IMG/VR virus record: IMGVR_UViG_3300030098_002588 | Coordinates: 1-30,271 of that record | Direction: 5' to 3' (one strand) | DNA from: a virus | Length of the DNA stretch: 30,271 nucleotides | Program-made: the position numbers and the translations under genes | Notes under the pieces: model-generated | What the model was told of the DNA's origin: nothing | Databases searched by the model: none | The model's input: the letters and a program-made list of their open reading frames with translations, nothing else | Shown here: positions 699-23,409 of the stretch, piece after piece | How the letters are laid out: each line of letters opens with the position of its first letter | Numbering within the stretch: position 1 is the first letter of the stretch

Positions 699-1712
699 TT
701 ATGTTCTGTCAGAAATCAATTCAATCGCAGCAGCAGGGTTAAGTGTACCGACACCCATTGCTAAACGTCCAACAATAACGTCTCCTTGGTAAAGTACTGA
801 AACATCCCCTGAAGTTACTTGAACTTGAGGACCGATTGCTTCAACAACACCAGCAGCATCTTTGTAGTAGATTAAACCACAGTGCTTAGAGAAGTCTCCA
901 TTGTATGCATTGTTCTCACCAGTTTCAGCGTTTACTGTACCAGCTAGGAATGGTAGATTATTAGAACGTCTGATCTGAATACCAGCGATCTCATATAGAC
1001 CTTCACCAGAATTTAGATTACCTTGTCCATTACCAAAGTCTCTATTAAGGATATTAGTAGATACCTGAGAAACTAGAGCATAGTACTGTCTTGGAGATAG
1101 TACAGCTGTTCTACCTTGCTTAGGCATATTCTTTTCATCAAGAATAGAAGCTGCTTCAAAGAAAGCATCTACTAGTGCTTGAGCATCATACTCCTTAGTT
1201 ACACCTAATTGGATCTGAGAACCACCAGGCTCAGGACCAGGAGATGCCTCGATAGGATGTGACTCACGAGCTGCTAAAGCAATCGTTCTGAAGATTTTCT
1301 TATCATATGCTTCAGCTAAAGCATGACCGATCTTCTTACTGATTTCTCCTCTAAGTGAGTAATGAGCAAGTGTTTCATCTAAGTCATAAATGAAAGCTGA
1401 ACCGATAAGGAGATCATCACAATTGATTGTCTTCTCAGCTACTGGAGGATCACCCGAACCCAATATAGGGGTTCCTGGCTCATGATAAGCAGCGGTCATT
1501 CTTCCTGTGAAGATGAACTGTAAACTCTTACCGTTCTTTAGTGTACGTCTTTGTACTGTATCTCTTGCAATTGTTGCTGACTCATAAGCTTTAAATAGCT
1601 CACCTGAGAACAGCTTGAGGTAGGTGTTATACTTAGTATCATAATCACCGCCCCATGTACTAGATACAGCCTTATTAGCTGAACCTAATACCGATTGTGT
1701 GGCATTAGCCAT
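699..1712 (-). CDS. Major capsid protein (T7 gp10-like)
   Basis: A 337-residue protein close in length to T7 gp10A, which forms the icosahedral shell. The N-terminus (MANATQSVLGSANKAVSSTW) and internal segments such as IARDTVQRRTLKNGKSLQF, FTGRMTAAYHEPGTPI and PRQYYALVSQVSTNILNRDF are typical of cyanopodovirus capsid proteins of the HK97 fold. The ATG start is conserved in kind. Unlike T7, where scaffold directly precedes capsid, here hli, psbA, ndhI, a beta-barrel gene and two virion-like genes lie between them. A structured leader with a terminator-like hairpin (1839-1865) lies upstream, so capsid probably has its own transcript end or start there. Confidence 0.95.
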   Translation of the reverse strand: MANATQSVLGSANKAVSSTWGGDYDTKYNTYLKLFSGELFKAYESATIARDTVQRRTLKNGKSLQFIFTGRMTAAYHEPGTPILGSGDPPVAEKTINCDDLLIGSAFIYDLDETLAHYSLRGEISKKIGHALAEAYDKKIFRTIALAARESHPIEASPGPEPGGSQIQLGVTKEYDAQALVDAFFEAASILDEKNMPKQGRTAVLSPRQYYALVSQVSTNILNRDFGNGQGNLNSGEGLYEIAGIQIRRSNNLPFLAGTVNAETGENNAYNGDFSKHCGLIYYKDAAGVVEAIGPQVQVTSGDVSVLYQGDVIVGRLAMGVGTLNPAAAIELISDRT

Positions 1713-3105: not shown

Positions 3106-3137
3106 AAAAAAGGATAGTAATCCGAAGACTACTATCC
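3106..3137 (-). terminator. Rho-independent terminator after the beta-barrel gene
   Basis: An eight-pair stem (GGATAGTA with TACTATCC) extended inside by TC/GA around a UUCG loop, followed by six T residues on the minus strand. It lies 22 bases after the stop of the outer-membrane protein gene and should end the hli-psbA-ndhI unit. Confidence 0.88.
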
Positions 3138-3159: not shown

Positions 3160-3516
3160 TTAGAAGCTGAACTTTGCTCCTAGCTTTGTACCGAAGGTGT
3201 TATCAGCGTCTTCCACTTGTGCGAAAGATACTTCACCATAGAGGCCAAGTTTATCTGTAGCAGAGACAGAGCCACCAAGCTTCCCAGAGAAATTAGACTC
3301 TGAATCAACCCCATCAACAGCATCAATCGTCTTACCACCTTGTACGTAGTAAGCAATATTGCCGACAGAGTTTTCATAACCCAAGTGTAGATCTGTAGCA
3401 CGAGATGTAAAATCAGAGCCAGTGTAGTTAGCGTTTGTTTCGACGTTAACATAAGGTCCAGCCATTGCAGGTGTAGAAACAAGGGCGGTTGTTAGGACAA
3501 GTGCAAGTTTTTTCAT
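3160..3516 (-). CDS. Small outer-membrane beta-barrel-like protein with signal peptide
   Basis: A 118-residue protein. Residues 1-19 form a signal peptide: MKK, a hydrophobic stretch, then a TPAMA cleavage-like site before GPYVN. The rest alternates polar and hydrophobic residues in short strands, and the last residue is Phe (AKFSF), the usual C-terminal signal of Gram-negative beta-barrel proteins. At about 99 mature residues it could form an OmpX- or OmpA-like eight-strand barrel at most. A phage product exported to the host outer membrane could change receptor exposure, block superinfection or alter permeability; these are inferences. ATG overlaps the TAA of the 37-residue gene (TAATG), so the two are translationally coupled. 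Confidence 0.75.
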   Translation of the reverse strand: MKKLALVLTTALVSTPAMAGPYVNVETNANYTGSDFTSRATDLHLGYENSVGNIAYYVQGGKTIDAVDGVDSESNFSGKLGGSVSATDKLGLYGEVSFAQVEDADNTFGTKLGAKFSF

Positions 3517-3629
3517 TAAATTAAATTAGTTGTGTATTTAGTGTAAGTGACACCACGATACTTGAGTTTCATTGCCTTTTGAAATTCCTGTTGCTCTTTA
3601 ATACGAGCTTGGAGTTCTACTTGTGACAT
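3516..3629 (-). CDS. 37-residue peptide resembling DUF4278
   Basis: ATG at 3629 follows a good ribosome binding site (AGAGG, seven bases upstream). The product begins MSQVELQARIKEQQEFQKAM and then has MKLKYRGVTYTKY, which resembles the short cyanobacterial DUF4278 domain (pattern MKLxYRGVxY). The N-terminal 20 residues look like an amphipathic helix. The stop overlaps the ATG of the beta-barrel gene by one base. Function is unknown; the match to DUF4278 is by eye from a short segment. Confidence 0.6.
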   Translation of the reverse strand: MSQVELQARIKEQQEFQKAMKLKYRGVTYTKYTTNLI

Positions 3630-3706
3630 AATAAATCCTCTAGTACCAAGACCCCGTTCCATGCCTTGGTTTCATGCGTCCATGAATGATGGATGAACGG
3701 ACGTGG

Positions 3707-4144
3707 TTAATGTGGATCCATTTTACCTTTAGGTAAATAGGTAAGTTCTTTTAATACCTTTACACTTGGATCAAGTGTTACGTTTGTAGGTAGACGACCT
3801 AATGCAACATTGTCAAAATTCAAACTATGTCTATCAAATGCAGCAAGTTCATATTCTTCTGTCATTGATAAGCAATTTGTTGGACAATACTCAACACAGT
3901 TACCACAAAATATACAAGCACCAAAATCAATAGAATAATTTCTTAGTTCTTTTTTCTTTGCTTCCTTATTCATCACCCAATCGACGACTGGGAGATTAAT
4001 GGGACATACCCTTACACATACTTCGCAAGCAATACACTTATCCATTTCAAAGTGTATACGTCCTCTATATTGAGTAGAGGGTATTAGTTTTTCGTAAGGA
4101 TATTGAACTGTTATTGGTCGTCTACCCATATGGTCAAAAGTCAC
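3707..4144 (-). CDS. ndhI: NdhI, NDH-1 iron-sulfur subunit (short form)
   Basis: Encodes the two-[4Fe-4S] subunit of cyanobacterial NDH-1, which carries electrons from ferredoxin to plastoquinone in cyclic and respiratory flow at the thylakoid membrane. Both cluster motifs are intact: [12 protein letters not shown] and [12 protein letters not shown], around residues 37-48 and 76-87. Also conserved are [31 protein letters not shown] and [16 protein letters not shown]. From GTG at 4144 (AGGG ribosome binding site) the product is 145 residues; host NdhI is roughly 200 or more. It stops just after LPKGKMDPH, so the host C-terminal tail is missing. NdhI-like codons continue upstream of the GTG to 4225 without a usual start codon. 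It lies 76 bases after psbA and is probably cotranscribed with it. Confidence 0.93.
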
Positions 4145-4225
4145 TGCTAGACCCTGTAAGATATACTTAGCAGAGTCAACAGTATCCTTTATATATTTTG
4201 TTAAAGTGTTTAAGATTTGATTAAC
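4145..4225 (-). other. NdhI-like coding sequence upstream of the GTG, no start codon
   Basis: In the ndhI frame, 27 codons between a TAG at 4226-4228 and the GTG at 4144 read ...[18 protein letters not shown], matching the N-terminal amphipathic region of cyanobacterial NdhI that leads into VTFDH. No ATG, GTG or TTG occurs among them; ATC and ATA codons do. Either the protein starts at a rare codon such as ATC, or the N-terminus has decayed and translation starts at GTG. Confidence 0.7.
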
Positions 4226-5288
4226 CTATAGAGATTGTTTCAGGTGTATCTACTGCAGCTAAATCAAGTGGGAAATTGTGTGCATTTCTTTCATGCATTA
4301 CTTCCATGCCAAGGTCAGCGCGGTTCAGGACATCAGCCCAAGTTGGCACTGTTCTTCCACCTGCATCGACGACGGACTGGTTAAAGTTAAAGCCGTTGAG
4401 ATTAAAAGCCATAGTGGAGATTCCCATAGAGGTAAGCCATATGCAAACGACGGGGAAAGTAGCAAGGAAAAAGTGTAGACTCCGGCTATTATTAAAAGAG
4501 GCATACTGAAAGATAAGTCTCCCAAAGTAGCCATGAGCCGCAATAATGTTATACGTCTCTTCTTCTTGACCGAATTTGTATCCATAGTTTTGTGAAACTA
4601 AGCCAGTCGTTTCTCTAATAAGTGAGGAAGTAACGAGACTTCCGTGCATTGCAGCGAAAAGAGCACCGCCGAATACCCCAGCAACACCGAGCATGTGGAA
4701 AGGATGCATGAGGATATTATGTTCGGCTTGGAATACGAACATAAAATTGAAAGTACCGCTAATACCAAGAGGCATACCATCACTGAAGCTCCCCTGACCG
4801 AATGGGTATACAAGGAAGACTGCAAATGATGCAGCGACTGGTGCGGAATAAGCTACACAAATCCATGGTCTCATTCCTAGTCTGTAACTAAGTTCCCATT
4901 GGCGTCCCAAGTAAGCTGAGATACCGATGAGGAAGTGAAAGACGATGAGTTGGTAGGGTCCACCGTTGTAAAGCCATTCATCGAGATTGGCTGCTTCCCA
5001 GATGGGATAGAAGTGGAGTCCGATTGCGTTTGAGCTGGGTACGATTGCACCTGATATGATGTTGTTTCCATAAATAAGTGAGCCTGCAACTGGTTCACGT
5101 ATTCCATCAATGTCTACAGGTGGTGCTGCTACGAATGCTATTAAGAAACAAGTAGTTGCTGTTAAGAGTGCGGGAATCATAAGAACACCAAACCACCCCA
5201 AGTAGAGGCGGTTGTTGGTGCTAGTAACCCAGTCACAAAAGCTATTCCAGTTGGTTGATAAAGGTTTAGTTAATGTGGCTGTTGTCAT
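4221..5288 (-). CDS. psbA: Photosystem II D1 protein
   Basis: A 355-residue D1, the reaction-centre subunit that binds P680, pheophytin, QB and part of the Mn cluster. Five transmembrane segments, [20 protein letters not shown], the QB and stroma-side loop with [33 protein letters not shown] and the C-terminal NFPLDLA are all conserved, including the site where CtpA cuts after DLA. The removable tail ([11 protein letters not shown]) is a little shorter than usual in hosts. Position 130 is Gln (GRQWELSYR). Phage D1 replaces damaged host D1 during infection. ATG starts immediately after the hli stop, making hli-psbA-ndhI one unit. Confidence 0.98.
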
Positions 5289-5486
5289 TTAAAAAATGCC
5301 GGGGATTATTTGTCCTGTTGTTATGTATGCACCTAGAGCTGCTACGATTCCAAGCATTGCTACTCGTCCGTTAAGCTCTTCAGCGATGTGCATAGGATCG
5401 CCTTCGTGATTATGATTTTCCATAAGTTGTATGGGAGGTTCTTTTGCGAAGATGTTTTGTTTACCGTATTCGGTTGTTGTGGTCAT
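5289..5486 (-). CDS. hli: High-light-inducible protein
   Basis: From ATG at 5486 the product is 65 residues. The C-terminal half has the chlorophyll-binding helix signature AEELNGRVAMLGIVAALGAY followed by TTGQIIPGIF, the usual ending of these single-helix LHC-like proteins. They sit in the thylakoid membrane, bind chlorophyll and protect photosystem II under light stress. A TTG nine bases further upstream is in frame, but the ATG is preferred because it begins the usual MTTTTEYG-type N-terminus. The gene abuts psbA and is preceded by a strong hairpin. Confidence 0.95.
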   Translation of the reverse strand: MTTTTEYGKQNIFAKEPPIQLMENHNHEGDPMHIAEELNGRVAMLGIVAALGAYITTGQIIPGIF

Positions 5487-11441: not shown

Positions 11442-12120
11442 GGTCGTAGTCGTCTGTGGTAAGTATTCGTGCGAGCTGTGCATTGACTAATGCGTCTGCT
11501 TCAGTCAACCCTTTCTCTTCGAAGGTTTCGACTACAGCTTTCCATGTGTAACCTTTATCTTTAAAGATAGTTTCGGCACGCTTGATTCCTATAGTTGGAC
11601 AGCCTGCATATCCATCTGTATTATCTCCTGCCATTGATTGCACGAGATGCCATCTAGCACCTTCCTCTGGTGTGATGTCTACAGTTTCTTTGAAGTCATA
11701 TAGTCTGCCGGGGATTTGTCTCATGTCCTTATCAGGAGAGACAATAATATTTCCGGGGTACTTAGTAGCGTAGATACCTAAAGCATCGTCAGCTTCTAAA
11801 GTATCTTTAACTATTACTTTGTACTCAGACTTAAGTTTATTTATCACCCTTTTAAATCCACAGGGCTTTTTTCTATTTCGATGCCCCTTATATTCGGGCA
11901 GAATTTTTTTCCTAAAATTATTAGGGCTTGTAAAGAATAGGATCATCTCGTCGAATGAGCCGAATTCCCTACGAATTTTACCTAATTCACGTGTTACGCA
12001 CGAATAGGCTTCCTTGAAGGATGATGTAACGACCATAACGTCGTCTCCAAAATCAAGCTCTGTTTCAGTGGCAGCGCAACATTTGTAGACGATGTAGTCG
12101 CAGTCAATAAGTAGTTTCAT
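11356..12120 (-). CDS. 5'-3' exonuclease (T7 gp6-like)
   Basis: A 254-residue flap/5' exonuclease of the PIN-like fold. Metal-binding acidic residues are visible in MKLLIDCDYIVYK, DTLEADDALGIYAT and VSPDKDMRQIPG, followed by the helix-three-turn-helix DNA grip MAGDNTDGYAGCPTIGIKRA. In T7 this enzyme removes RNA primers and degrades host DNA to recycle nucleotides. The ATG overlaps the end of the LAGLIDADG endonuclease gene by 17 bases. Confidence 0.93.
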   Translation of the reverse strand: MKLLIDCDYIVYKCCAATETELDFGDDVMVVTSSFKEAYSCVTRELGKIRREFGSFDEMILFFTSPNNFRKKILPEYKGHRNRKKPCGFKRVINKLKSEYKVIVKDTLEADDALGIYATKYPGNIIVSPDKDMRQIPGRLYDFKETVDITPEEGARWHLVQSMAGDNTDGYAGCPTIGIKRAETIFKDKGYTWKAVVETFEEKGLTEADALVNAQLARILTTDDYDHDKQEPILWTPTSEYEVNDGTRVPAEVN

Positions 12121-12475
12121 TTAGGTGGTTAATTGCCTCTATAGCTTTTTCAGCTCTACGTTTACCGAAGTGTGGTAAGAACATTTTTAATATGCGTAAG
12201 ACTTCAGTTTTTTTACTTACTTCCCATGCCCAGAAAGGTTTATTAGTACCTTTATATGGACCATTTAAATTGCCATAACCAATAACATTGACAAATCTCT
12301 GCATGACATCTTTATCAGTCATACCTATTTTAAGATATCTATGTTTTGGTGTCTGTTTTTTTATGCAAATACTCCCTTCTCCTTCAAATAAACCTGCAGC
12401 CCAAACTATATCAGTGTACCTCTGACCAATTGCTGCCAGATTTTGCTTCTGCTGCGATAGGGCATCGTAATTCAT
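12104..12475 (-). CDS. LAGLIDADG-type homing endonuclease (single motif)
   Basis: From ATG at 12475 (GGAGAG four bases upstream) the product is 123 residues. DIVWAAGLFEGEGSICI is the LAGLIDADG helix with its acidic residue, followed by beta strands (RYLKIGMTDKDVMQRF, GYGNLNGPYKGTNKPFWAWE) and a helical end (VLRILKMFLPHFGKRRAEKA). Single-motif members work as homodimers. It is free-standing rather than inside an intron: its first 22 codons overlap the 3' end of the DNA polymerase gene in another frame and its end overlaps exonuclease. Homing into the polymerase-exonuclease junction is a common pattern in phages. Confidence 0.8.
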   Translation of the reverse strand: MNYDALSQQKQNLAAIGQRYTDIVWAAGLFEGEGSICIKKQTPKHRYLKIGMTDKDVMQRFVNVIGYGNLNGPYKGTNKPFWAWEVSKKTEVLRILKMFLPHFGKRRAEKAIEAINHLNETTY

Positions 12476-13682
12476 AATACTCTCCAGCTTTAACTGCTGA
12501 GAGTTCAAGGGTGAACTTAACGTCATTTATATCTTTGGGGTGGCACTCAAATTGCAATTCGTCGTGGATGAATCCCAATTGATGAGAGTGAACATTTATT
12601 TCTTTGAAAATTTGGTGGGCTATAACCATTTGCCGCTTAGCGACAATTCCGGCTGAGCCTTGTAAAAGGTAGTTGAGAGCCTTATGAGGGCTGTCTACTA
12701 AGATCTTGCGTCCATCTATACCTTTGATGAATCCCTGCTCTCCACGGGCTTTTACAGCCCTTAGAAGGTCGCCTAATCCATCAATAGCATCAACGTATGC
12801 AGCTCTTATTTCCTGACCTTTTTTCTTTGCTTTATTTGGTTTTAGTTGGGGGTCAACTGACAGACCTAACTTCTGATCTCCCCCGCCATACAAGAAGCAG
12901 TAGGTTACTGTCTTGACTTGTCTACGGGAAATACCAATTTTATCTGCGTTAACTTGGTGTATATCTCCATTAAGGAGGATGCTGGCATACCTGCCTCCGT
13001 CATATCGTGCAAGATAATGGGCAAGCATCCGTAACTCAATACCAGACAAATCAGCCCCGCACATAACAAGACCCGGTCCAGCAGTGAATAAAGCACGGAA
13101 TCTAGGGTCGCTCGGAGTTTGGCTAATGTTTGGTCGTCGATGTGCACAGCGAAAAGTATTAGTTGCTACTGAACAGTGATGATGTATCCGGCTAGACGTC
13201 GTAACAAGCTTCAGCCATGCGTTCACGCCTTCGCACAGAATCCCTAAAAGCTTCTTCAGCTCCAGACATCGAAGAAATTTCATCGCTATATCCGACCCAT
13301 GGTCCTTTAGAACCTTCTCGTCTATAACGGGCTTGCCGTTGGAGCTTATTGATAAGGGTGTCCATCCATAGTGAGTAGTCAAAATCCATGCGATATGATC
13401 TCTAGAGGTAACATTTAGTTCTTTTAGCTTTGTGAATTTGCATCCTTCTACATAACCTTTAGTCTGGTTATTTCTTTTAGGAGTGAATTCCGTGTCTGCA
13501 ACGAAAGCGTGCCTGTTTCGAAGTAACGCAGTAGTTTCTTCCAGTTCGCTTCTGAGATCTTGTTCAAGTTCCCATGCAGATTTCTCATCAAAATGCCATC
13601 CATATTCCTCTTGGGTAGTAAGTATTTGTGCAACCTGATGCTCTAGCCAGCACCAGTCAGGTAAGTCCGGAAGTGCTCGCAT
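12411..13682 (-). CDS. DNA polymerase, polymerase domain (T7 gp5-like, C-terminal part)
   Basis: About 423 residues from ATG at 13682 (MRALPDLPDWCWLEHQ). Family A catalytic motifs are intact: motif A VMCGADLSGIELRMLAHYLA, motif B RRQVKTVTYCFLYGGGDQ, motif C FIHDELQFEC. It ends SGSNWSEVH, like T7-type polymerases. The 3'-5' exonuclease domain is a separate frame upstream (13643-14158), overlapping by 40 bases from this ATG. A TTG at 13739 would add 19 unrelated residues. Fused by a -1 shift in the overlap, the two parts would give a polymerase of ordinary cyanopodovirus length, with the break at the domain linker. Confidence 0.92.
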   Translation of the reverse strand: MRALPDLPDWCWLEHQVAQILTTQEEYGWHFDEKSAWELEQDLRSELEETTALLRNRHAFVADTEFTPKRNNQTKGYVEGCKFTKLKELNVTSRDHIAWILTTHYGWTPLSISSNGKPVIDEKVLKDHGSDIAMKFLRCLELKKLLGILCEGVNAWLKLVTTSSRIHHHCSVATNTFRCAHRRPNISQTPSDPRFRALFTAGPGLVMCGADLSGIELRMLAHYLARYDGGRYASILLNGDIHQVNADKIGISRRQVKTVTYCFLYGGGDQKLGLSVDPQLKPNKAKKKGQEIRAAYVDAIDGLGDLLRAVKARGEQGFIKGIDGRKILVDSPHKALNYLLQGSAGIVAKRQMVIAHQIFKEINVHSHQLGFIHDELQFECHPKDINDVKFTLELSAVKAGEYYELRCPIAAEAKSGSNWSEVH

Positions 13683-14158
13683 AGTTTCATAGTTACTTTT
13701 ACGTCTTGGATGCAGTAGTCCTGCATGTCTTGTGTCCAATCCGCCCAGTCAGTCGTCTCACCAAAGTCACCTTTATACTCTCCTAGCCTGTAGCCGTATG
13801 ACTTAAGACTATGGCGTCCATATAGGTTGGTAGGCATATCCTTCCATTCCCTCTTCTTATCTATCTCATACATGTTTGGATGAAATAAACGAGAAAGAAC
13901 TAACGTATCGAATGGCTTACCTTCTAACTTAAAGTGAGGGTAGATCTTACGTATTGCGGGTATGTCATAACCAATGATGTTATGTCCGATTAGATGCTTA
14001 GCTTTAGATAACTGAACTAAACCATCAATAATGCTCGGACAATTTCCTTGGTTGTTATAAGCAGTTAGCTTGTCAGTGTCAGTGTCATAGGTAACTAGAC
14101 AATGAACTTTGGAGACCGTCTTTAATAATCCATTGGTCTCTATGTCGAATACGATCAT
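13643..14158 (-). CDS. DNA polymerase, 3'-5' exonuclease domain (N-terminal part)
   Basis: A 171-residue DnaQ-like proofreading domain. Exo I is MIVFDIETNGL, Exo II lies in HLIGHNIIGYDIPAI, Exo III is YCIQDVKVTMKL. It corresponds to the first third of T7 DNA polymerase and ends in the linker at a TAG. The polymerase domain follows in the -1 frame, starting within this gene. ATG overlaps the primase-helicase stop (TAATG). Whether the domains act as two chains or are joined by frameshifting cannot be told from sequence alone; no classical slippery heptamer stands out. Confidence 0.92.
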   Translation of the reverse strand: MIVFDIETNGLLKTVSKVHCLVTYDTDTDKLTAYNNQGNCPSIIDGLVQLSKAKHLIGHNIIGYDIPAIRKIYPHFKLEGKPFDTLVLSRLFHPNMYEIDKKREWKDMPTNLYGRHSLKSYGYRLGEYKGDFGETTDWADWTQDMQDYCIQDVKVTMKLCEHFRTYLTGAG

Positions 14159-19269: not shown

Positions 19270-19295
19270 CCACTTAAGTTAACTATTGATGTTGG

Positions 19296-19335
19296 TTTTT
19301 GAGTGCGGTGCGTCTACCAATTCCACCACGCTCCC
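19296..19335 (-). other. Probable attP: 5' half of a tRNA-Leu gene
   Basis: On the minus strand these 40 bases read as the first half of a tRNA-Leu: acceptor strand GGGAGCG, the D-arm region TGGTGGAATTGGTAGACGC, then the stem start and anticodon loop with CAA. Homology stops after the anticodon loop; no matching 3' half follows, so it cannot be a working tRNA. It sits about 100 bases downstream of the integrase gene. I recall a 42-base tRNA-Leu match beside the integrase of cyanophage P-SSP7, proposed as its attachment site. Integration into a host tRNA-Leu(CAA) gene is the likely meaning. Confidence 0.75.
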
Positions 19336-19431
19336 AAGGCTTTTCAGCGATAAAAGTGTAACAGAAGGGCTTAACATTGCACAAAAACGTATCAAATAGT
19401 GGTGAAAACAACATGCTATGGACGAGGCGCA

Positions 19432-20340
19432 CTACGCAACTGCGAAGTCTATCGCGTTTATTTTTGTTGCGAGCTGCTTATCGTTCGCGTGCATGTATCT
19501 TTCAGTGACCTTGGTTGAACTATGACCAAGTTGTTTAGCTATATCAAATATGTGAATACCACTCTGGTATAGAAGGGTGCCACATGTATGACGTAAGCCA
19601 TGGAAAGTCCATCCTTGATTTGGATAGGGCTTACCTATATGTAGAAGACACTTCTGGAAAGCTCTTCTAATGGCGTTCTGAGCTGCTTTGCTGCTGGTAC
19701 GTGTCCAATCATCCCCAAACAGGTAAGTCCTGTTTTCCTTGCACCTTCGTACAAGTATGGGAAGCAAAGAGTCATGTATGCCGCATGTCCTAGCTTGCTG
19801 ATTCTTATTCTTAGGTTTAACAACAGTGATTAGTTTCTGATCAAAATCCACACGATCTGGTCTCAGACTGAGGATCTTATCTAAACGAATACCTGTTAAA
19901 GCTGCGAATAAGATTATGTCAGCTAATGCTTCGTTCATTAATTCATCACGAGCGAACTGGTGCATCTTTTGAACTTCTTCTGCTGTATAAGCAAAGCGTT
20001 CTTGTGCATCCTCGGCTGGATTAAACTTAGTGAACTTAGGTATAGGGTGATCAAATGGTATTAAGCCATGTGTCTTGGAGTGGTTAAGCACTACCGACAC
20101 TGCTGATACATATCTATTTAAAGATCCATGCTTCAGTGGCTTACCATAAGCACCATTTTTTAACTCAATACAATCTTCAAGGACCATTCGAGCTGTAATC
20201 TTCGTGACGTCAAACTGATGACTGTGAAGATCAGTGAACTTACCTGAGTAAAGGAGCGCGGACTTCCGTCCATTCCCTTGCCAAGTAGTTTTCTTTGTGA
20301 ACTCAAGGCATTCACCCCAAGTTACTTTCTTACTCTTCAT
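19432..20340 (-). CDS. int: Tyrosine-type integrase
   Basis: From ATG at 20340 (MKSKKVTWGECLEFTKKTTW) the product is 302 residues; a TTG further up at 20445 would add 35 residues out of keeping with the family. Catalytic residues: Arg in ALTGIRLDKILSL, Lys in the beta-hairpin VVKPKNKN, His-x-x-Arg in HGLRHTCG, His in QLGHSS and the nucleophile Tyr in TERYMHA. The usual Glu of TGxRxxE is Lys here. The N-terminal part is a SAM-like DNA-binding domain. It catalyses site-specific recombination, presumably at the neighbouring tRNA-Leu half. It overlaps the MarR-like gene by 11 bases. Confidence 0.93.
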   Translation of the reverse strand: MKSKKVTWGECLEFTKKTTWQGNGRKSALLYSGKFTDLHSHQFDVTKITARMVLEDCIELKNGAYGKPLKHGSLNRYVSAVSVVLNHSKTHGLIPFDHPIPKFTKFNPAEDAQERFAYTAEEVQKMHQFARDELMNEALADIILFAALTGIRLDKILSLRPDRVDFDQKLITVVKPKNKNQQARTCGIHDSLLPILVRRCKENRTYLFGDDWTRTSSKAAQNAIRRAFQKCLLHIGKPYPNQGWTFHGLRHTCGTLLYQSGIHIFDIAKQLGHSSTKVTERYMHANDKQLATKINAIDFAVA

Positions 20341-23301: not shown

Positions 23302-23333
23302 GAGAATTAATAACTACTCTCATTGAGTAGCAA

Positions 23334-23405
23334 CGGATGATAGGGGAATCGAACCCCTAACTATGGATAGACAATCCATGGTTATGACCATTTAACTAAT
23401 CATCC
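23334..23405 (-). tRNA. tRNA-Asp(GTC)
   Basis: All arms are complete: acceptor GGATGAT/ATCATCC with discriminator G, D-stem GTTA/TAAC, anticodon stem ATGGA/TCCAT with loop TTGTCTA (anticodon GTC), T-stem AGGGG/CCCCT with loop TTCGATT. No encoded CCA. It lies between two early genes in the same direction and must be cut from their transcript; RNase P processing would also split the mRNA. Confidence 0.92.
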
Positions 23406-23409
23406 AAGA

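Follow-up and report, generated by a model that had tools for sequence, protein, structure and literature searches.

A T7-like cyanophage ndhI between psbA and a Glutamine-II riboswitch, with neither an ATG start nor a C-terminal tail

A T7-like cyanophage genome carries an ndhI gene that has lost both its ATG start and its C-terminal tail and is nonetheless kept under selection as a protein, in a position between psbA and a Glutamine-II riboswitch. The genome is the IMG/VR record IMGVR_UViG_3300030098_002588, positions 1 to 30,271, and the whole 30,271-nt stretch analysed is referred to here as the window. Our best overall reading, which we hold at a probability of about 0.6, is that ndhI was inserted once, was trimmed at both ends, and would now be translated from a weak start into a low level of functional NdhI feeding the host NDH-1 complex.

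The window belongs to a T7-like cyanopodovirus, as judged from a T7-type RNAP encoded elsewhere in it, a Gp10-like capsid, a T7-type scaffold and a conserved gene order. On the minus strand this order runs portal, scaffold (PF05396), hli, psbA, ndhI, small ORFs and Gp10-like capsid. A first-pass annotation of this DNA had described a podoviral ndhI directly behind hli-psbA, and the T7-like genes on both flanks, together with the T7-type RNAP, bear out this context. An assembly break between psbA and ndhI does not explain the arrangement, since the junction is unbroken both in the window and across several independent contigs. The features of the locus are as follows.

5289..5486, minus strand: hli; start ATG 5486, with TTG 5495 also possible; weak Pfam match
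4221..5288, minus strand: psbA (D1), PF00124; stop TAA 4223-4221, 4 nt before the ndhI start
4225..4230, minus strand: Shine-Dalgarno (SD)-like TATAGG within the psbA 3' end, 8 nt before the ATC
4214..4216, minus strand: putative non-canonical start codon ATC of ndhI; ATC or ATT in 7 contigs
3707..4216, minus strand: ndhI, 169 codons plus stop; probable start ATC 4216-4214
3645..3702, minus strand: Glutamine-II (Downstream-peptide) riboswitch RF01704; 58.4 bits against a gathering threshold of 33, E=7e-12; 4 nt past the ndhI stop
3516..3629, minus strand: short downstream peptide ORF, DUF4278 (PF14105), behind the riboswitch
3160..3516, minus strand: cyanophage outer-membrane-like beta-barrel protein (PF24653)
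3112..3137, minus strand: intrinsic-terminator-like hairpin with a TTCG loop and T run; consensus match only
699..1712, minus strand: major capsid protein, Gp10A-like (PF21703); downstream flank of the ndhI locus

The hairpin at 3137-3112 fits the end of an hli-psbA-ndhI-DP-OMP (AMG) transcript before the capsid gene, and co-expression of ndhI with psbA and hli is plausible.

Other parts of these genomes gave several separate observations. DNA polymerase is apparently split in the window (12411-14158, minus strand) into overlapping ORFs 13643-14158 and 12411-13739, which are separate in L165 and L168 too; an ORF at 12104-12526 may encode a homing-endonuclease type protein, and a tRNA-Asp (GTC) gene lies at 23333-23406 (minus strand). 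A reading frame at 19283-19432 (minus strand), beside the integrase gene and ending in ERGGIGRRTALKNQHQ, is of the type that results from translation of a tRNA 3' end; we presume that this end may be an attP site, as in P-SSP7. One of the other podovirus contigs with ndhI, L010, contains a Group I intron (RF00028, 99.9 bits) at 1499-1728, just upstream of its capsid-gene match.

The gene is an ndhI, as first annotated. When the minus-strand frame 4225-3707 was aligned with a host-type NdhI, as had been proposed, it matched that of T. elongatus (6hum_I) without gaps at E=3.8e-89, far above any ferredoxin. Both CxxCxxCxxxCP motifs of the [4Fe-4S] clusters (N6a and N6b) are present, and all eight Cys ligands are invariant. 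K84, K87 and K89 of the window protein correspond to Lys86, Lys89 and Lys91 of T. elongatus NDH-1L NdhI, which contact ferredoxin (PMC7021789), and are likewise invariant in the alignment. The N-helix, which holds NdhA and NdhL (PMC6992706), is encoded and conserved in podoviral ndhI, and would be translated only from a start at or near ATC 4216. From these sequence features it is plausible that the product works as an NdhI and increases or sustains cyclic flow. AlphaFold models of the window and host proteins reached pLDDT values of 33 and 40, respectively; this confidence was too low and the models were discarded. The first-pass annotation was also right that ndhI had been seen in marine viruses, as the gene is on record there (PMC10452541) and is present in P-TIM68 and P-TIM40.

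Scanning IMG/VR gave 143 relatives of the gene, 80 of which were kept. For eleven sequences, including the window, the genome is T7-like and ndhI is flanked by hli/psbA on one side and the capsid gene on the other, and in one of the podoviral contigs (L018) psbA is absent upstream of ndhI. The remaining viral copies resemble ndhI of the myoviruses P-TIM68 and P-TIM40; for most of these contigs the label myovirus denotes the absence of T7-like genes plus kinship to the P-TIM phages, not a full genome. In a maximum-likelihood tree, podoviral ndhI is monophyletic (96/89) and sister to myoviral ndhI (99/90), within a viral clade (99/85) that leaves the hosts outside, although the root serves for drawing only and gives no direction between the podoviral and myoviral groups. 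No podovirus isolate record of the phage collection searched contains ndhI, and pattern scans for more psbA-ndhI junctions returned two matches only (L174 and L175), both unrelated. Six IMG/VR podovirus contigs (L199-L204) break off inside ndhI, and the gene is probably under-counted because assemblies tend to break at psbA-ndhI.

The presumed insertion site is marked by the riboswitch, a class described previously (PMC2864571, PMC6698751). In the window, and in eight of the nine other podoviral contigs that have it, it begins about 4-6 nt past the ndhI stop, the exception being L010, where this distance is ~100 nt. All seven podovirus records without ndhI that were checked have the riboswitch at the same locus, after psbA, hli or a small ORF; in the two myoviral ndhI loci scanned (L001 and L007), it was not found. 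The simplest reading is that ndhI is a cassette placed between psbA and the riboswitch with loss of its ATG and tail. Given that ndhI is absent in all isolates tested, we infer insertion rather than repeated loss of the gene.

The start of the gene required revision. Of the interval first assigned to it, 3707-4225, the end of the frame stands, but position 4225 marks no start codon, only a GTT preceded by an in-frame TAG. Homology to the starts of other NdhI proteins is first seen at ATC 4216, and no ATG, GTG or TTG occurs in the window frame ahead of GTG 4144. Most of the closest relatives similarly have none ahead of ATG(-31), with the exception of a single TTG at -41 in L005. At position -60, the initiator Met of many myoviral NdhI, an ATC or ATT is found in seven contigs (the window, L003, L004, L005, L006, L187 and, with ATC, L188). 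These seven contigs are related to one another and were drawn from a few IMG samples. At -56, TTG or GTG is found in five sister copies, at or near the upstream stop. Overall, the start position of 12 podoviral contigs is ATC/ATT in seven, TTG in three, GTG in two and ATG in none, counts that share one podoviral origin and hence are not independent. In comparison, ATG starts 72 of 72 myoviral and 80 of 80 host ndhI genes.

The stretch of codons before the first usual start shows homology to NdhI and is very probably translated, since its pooled pN is 0.044 against a pS of 0.250 among the AUH members; in pairwise comparisons the N-terminal pN is also lower than pS (p 0.0002 to 0.065). Synonymous divergence itself is low at this end, with pS of 0.10-0.23 over the first 20 codons and mostly 0.4-0.85 downstream. 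Of five pairs tested, four show this difference significantly (p 0.0001 to 0.012) and the pair of the window and L187 does not (p 0.53); it has no counterpart in the N-termini of myoviral ndhI used as controls. The pattern points to constraint on the RNA around the ndhI start, and recombination near psbA could contribute to it. Two specific elements were considered at this site and rejected. For an overlapping promoter, promoter-like counts were no higher than in shuffled sequence and the window contains just one copy of the conserved AT-rich stretch; for an RNA hairpin, the minimum free energy was not below that of shuffles (z 0.52) and the alignment fold consists mostly of invariant pairs.

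One tentative proposal, which we would put at somewhat under even odds, is that the clade keeps AUU/AUC under selection, with the host initiation factor IF3 and psbA termination jointly setting a low NdhI:D1 ratio on one mRNA. Start codons of this kind are known from infC, where AUU or AUC is repressed by IF3 in other bacteria, and the non-canonical start of Streptomyces sigR is likewise IF3-repressed (PMC5472188). Host infC supplies no precedent for the AUH starts, as all six picocyanobacterial genomes checked use ATG for this gene. Alternatively, the AUH start may be used but be no more than a neutral scar of the insertion, so that coupling to psbA suffices and the codon has no tuning role. 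A single insertion event apparently cost the gene both its start and its tail, and the TTG and GTG codons of the sister subgroup, at or near upstream stops, suit such coupling. Neutrality sits poorly, however, with a third base that switches between C and T and is never G in any of the 12 contigs, though ATG is one base away, and with the constraint at synonymous sites of the initiation region. We consider this alternative unlikely, if still a serious one.

Considerably less probable is a true start inside the frame, at GTG 4144 of the window or at ATG 4129, yielding an NdhI without the N-helix that might act as a soluble carrier or else as a dominant-negative subunit. In their favor, they are the earliest canonical starts of the frame, and GTG 4144 has an AGGG 7 nt ahead of it. 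But this GTG is possible only in the window, the relatives compared having GTT or GTC; ATG 4129 has no SD; and the N-terminal codons are conserved as protein.

The shortened C-terminus reported at first pass is real and is common to the whole podoviral clade. The window protein terminates at MDPH with 0 aa beyond it. Residues past MDPH number 0-1 in podoviral copies (counting all members that reach the relevant ends), 12-30 in myoviral copies and at least 26 in host copies where measured. A scan for ndhI 3' ends beside the riboswitch returned 14 contigs, each of which has its MDPH end at the riboswitch; because the pattern required such an end, the result documents recurrence and does not bear on whether other forms exist. 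In the solved chloroplast NDH complexes, plastid NdhI lacks the tail and measures only 163-172 aa, so that the tail is dispensable for NDH function in general and its loss is probably minor. The missing ATG and tail could also suggest a decaying passenger without function, but the pN/pS of ~0.05 over the ndhI body, the intact cluster ligands and ferredoxin-binding lysines, and retention across a divergent clade make this very improbable.

At the psbA-ndhI junction, TATAGG and the ATH that follows are invariant in alignment A1, and TATAGG is at the same time the end of the psbA frame (SIG-stop or TIG-stop). L187 has an altered psbA 3' end, with an ALSIG-stop-like remnant in which TATAGG still precedes the ATT, and this argues that TATAGG serves ndhI and speaks against a frameshift fusion. 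TATAGG is likewise retained in L171. Short ORFs end just before the start in L187, and translational coupling is therefore possible there too. Where the psbA 3' end has been replaced, in L187 (8080-8170) and L171, a small basic ORF (MPKGPGTYGTKVGRPKKTTKKK) lies between psbA and ndhI. A D1-NdhI fusion through +1 frameshifting or stop-codon readthrough at the psbA end, to which the close overlap of the two genes and the conserved CTATAGGTTA at the junction might point, was rejected and is the least credible explanation of all, because psbA of L187 ends upstream with unrelated sequence and the small ORF intervening, L018 has no psbA before ndhI, and the D1 C-terminus is lumenal and processed while NdhI works on the stromal side.

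Under the single-insertion reading that we favor, ndhI would have entered a cyanopodovirus lineage early and once, between psbA and the riboswitch that follows the AMG block. Trimming would have cost the gene its ATG where it meets psbA and its dispensable C-terminal tail where it meets the riboswitch. In the subgroup of the window, ribosomes fresh from psbA termination would initiate at AUC or AUU with an SD (UAUAGG) supplied by the psbA end, and in the sister subgroup at a UUG or GUG codon lying on or close to the upstream stop. Such weak starts would hold NdhI far below D1 from the same mRNA, a low dose that would match one NdhI per NDH-1 complex versus the fast-turnover D1. The phage NdhI may then join host NDH-1 at its ferredoxin-binding tip, supporting cyclic flow from Fd to plastoquinone as well as the supply of ATP.

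Should the AUH start be in use, the phage would set separate protein doses on one AMG transcript without extra promoters. On the tentative IF3 proposal above, the arrangement would amount to dosage control by start codon within a viral photosynthesis operon, set against a glutamine riboswitch. The photosynthesis block adjoins a sensor of nitrogen status. Manipulation of cyclic electron flow would extend from T4-like to T7-like cyanophages, until now credited mainly with PSII genes. There is also a practical consequence: gene finders using ATG, GTG and TTG would cut ndhI to GTG 4144, with loss of the membrane-binding helix, or miss it. What is more unusual here is that the absence of an ATG is conserved and that the gene abuts the riboswitch.

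The kind of gene is known, and its podoviral form is new as far as the literature and collections searched show; we found no description of this form, its start or its insertion site in that literature. The ndhI genes of P-TIM68 and P-TIM40 share the protein family, the viral clade and 80-86% identity, with psbA nearby in P-TIM68, but lie in T4-like phage genomes, start with ATG and have tails of at least 12 aa. Like NdhI of cyanobacterial NDH-1L (6hum_I) and plastid NDH, the podoviral protein has two [4Fe-4S] motifs and the ferredoxin-binding hairpin lysines, and its gene encodes an N-helix that would be present with a start at or near ATC 4216; it is about 25-45 aa shorter at the C-terminus than cyanobacterial NdhI and close to plastid NdhI in length. 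P-SSP10, 9515-10a, NATL1A-7, P-SSP7 and their relatives have the same portal-scaffold-hli/psbA-riboswitch-capsid order but no ndhI, the riboswitch directly following psbA, hli or a small ORF. The RF01704 element has a DUF4278 downstream peptide here as elsewhere, but here it sits immediately downstream of a gene for electron transfer, within a phage AMG block. Finally, podoviral ndhI resembles infC in an ATT/ATC start kept among relatives, in this case with a spaced SD; unlike infC and sigR, it is a phage metabolic gene without an IF3 feedback loop, and the use of its start is putative.
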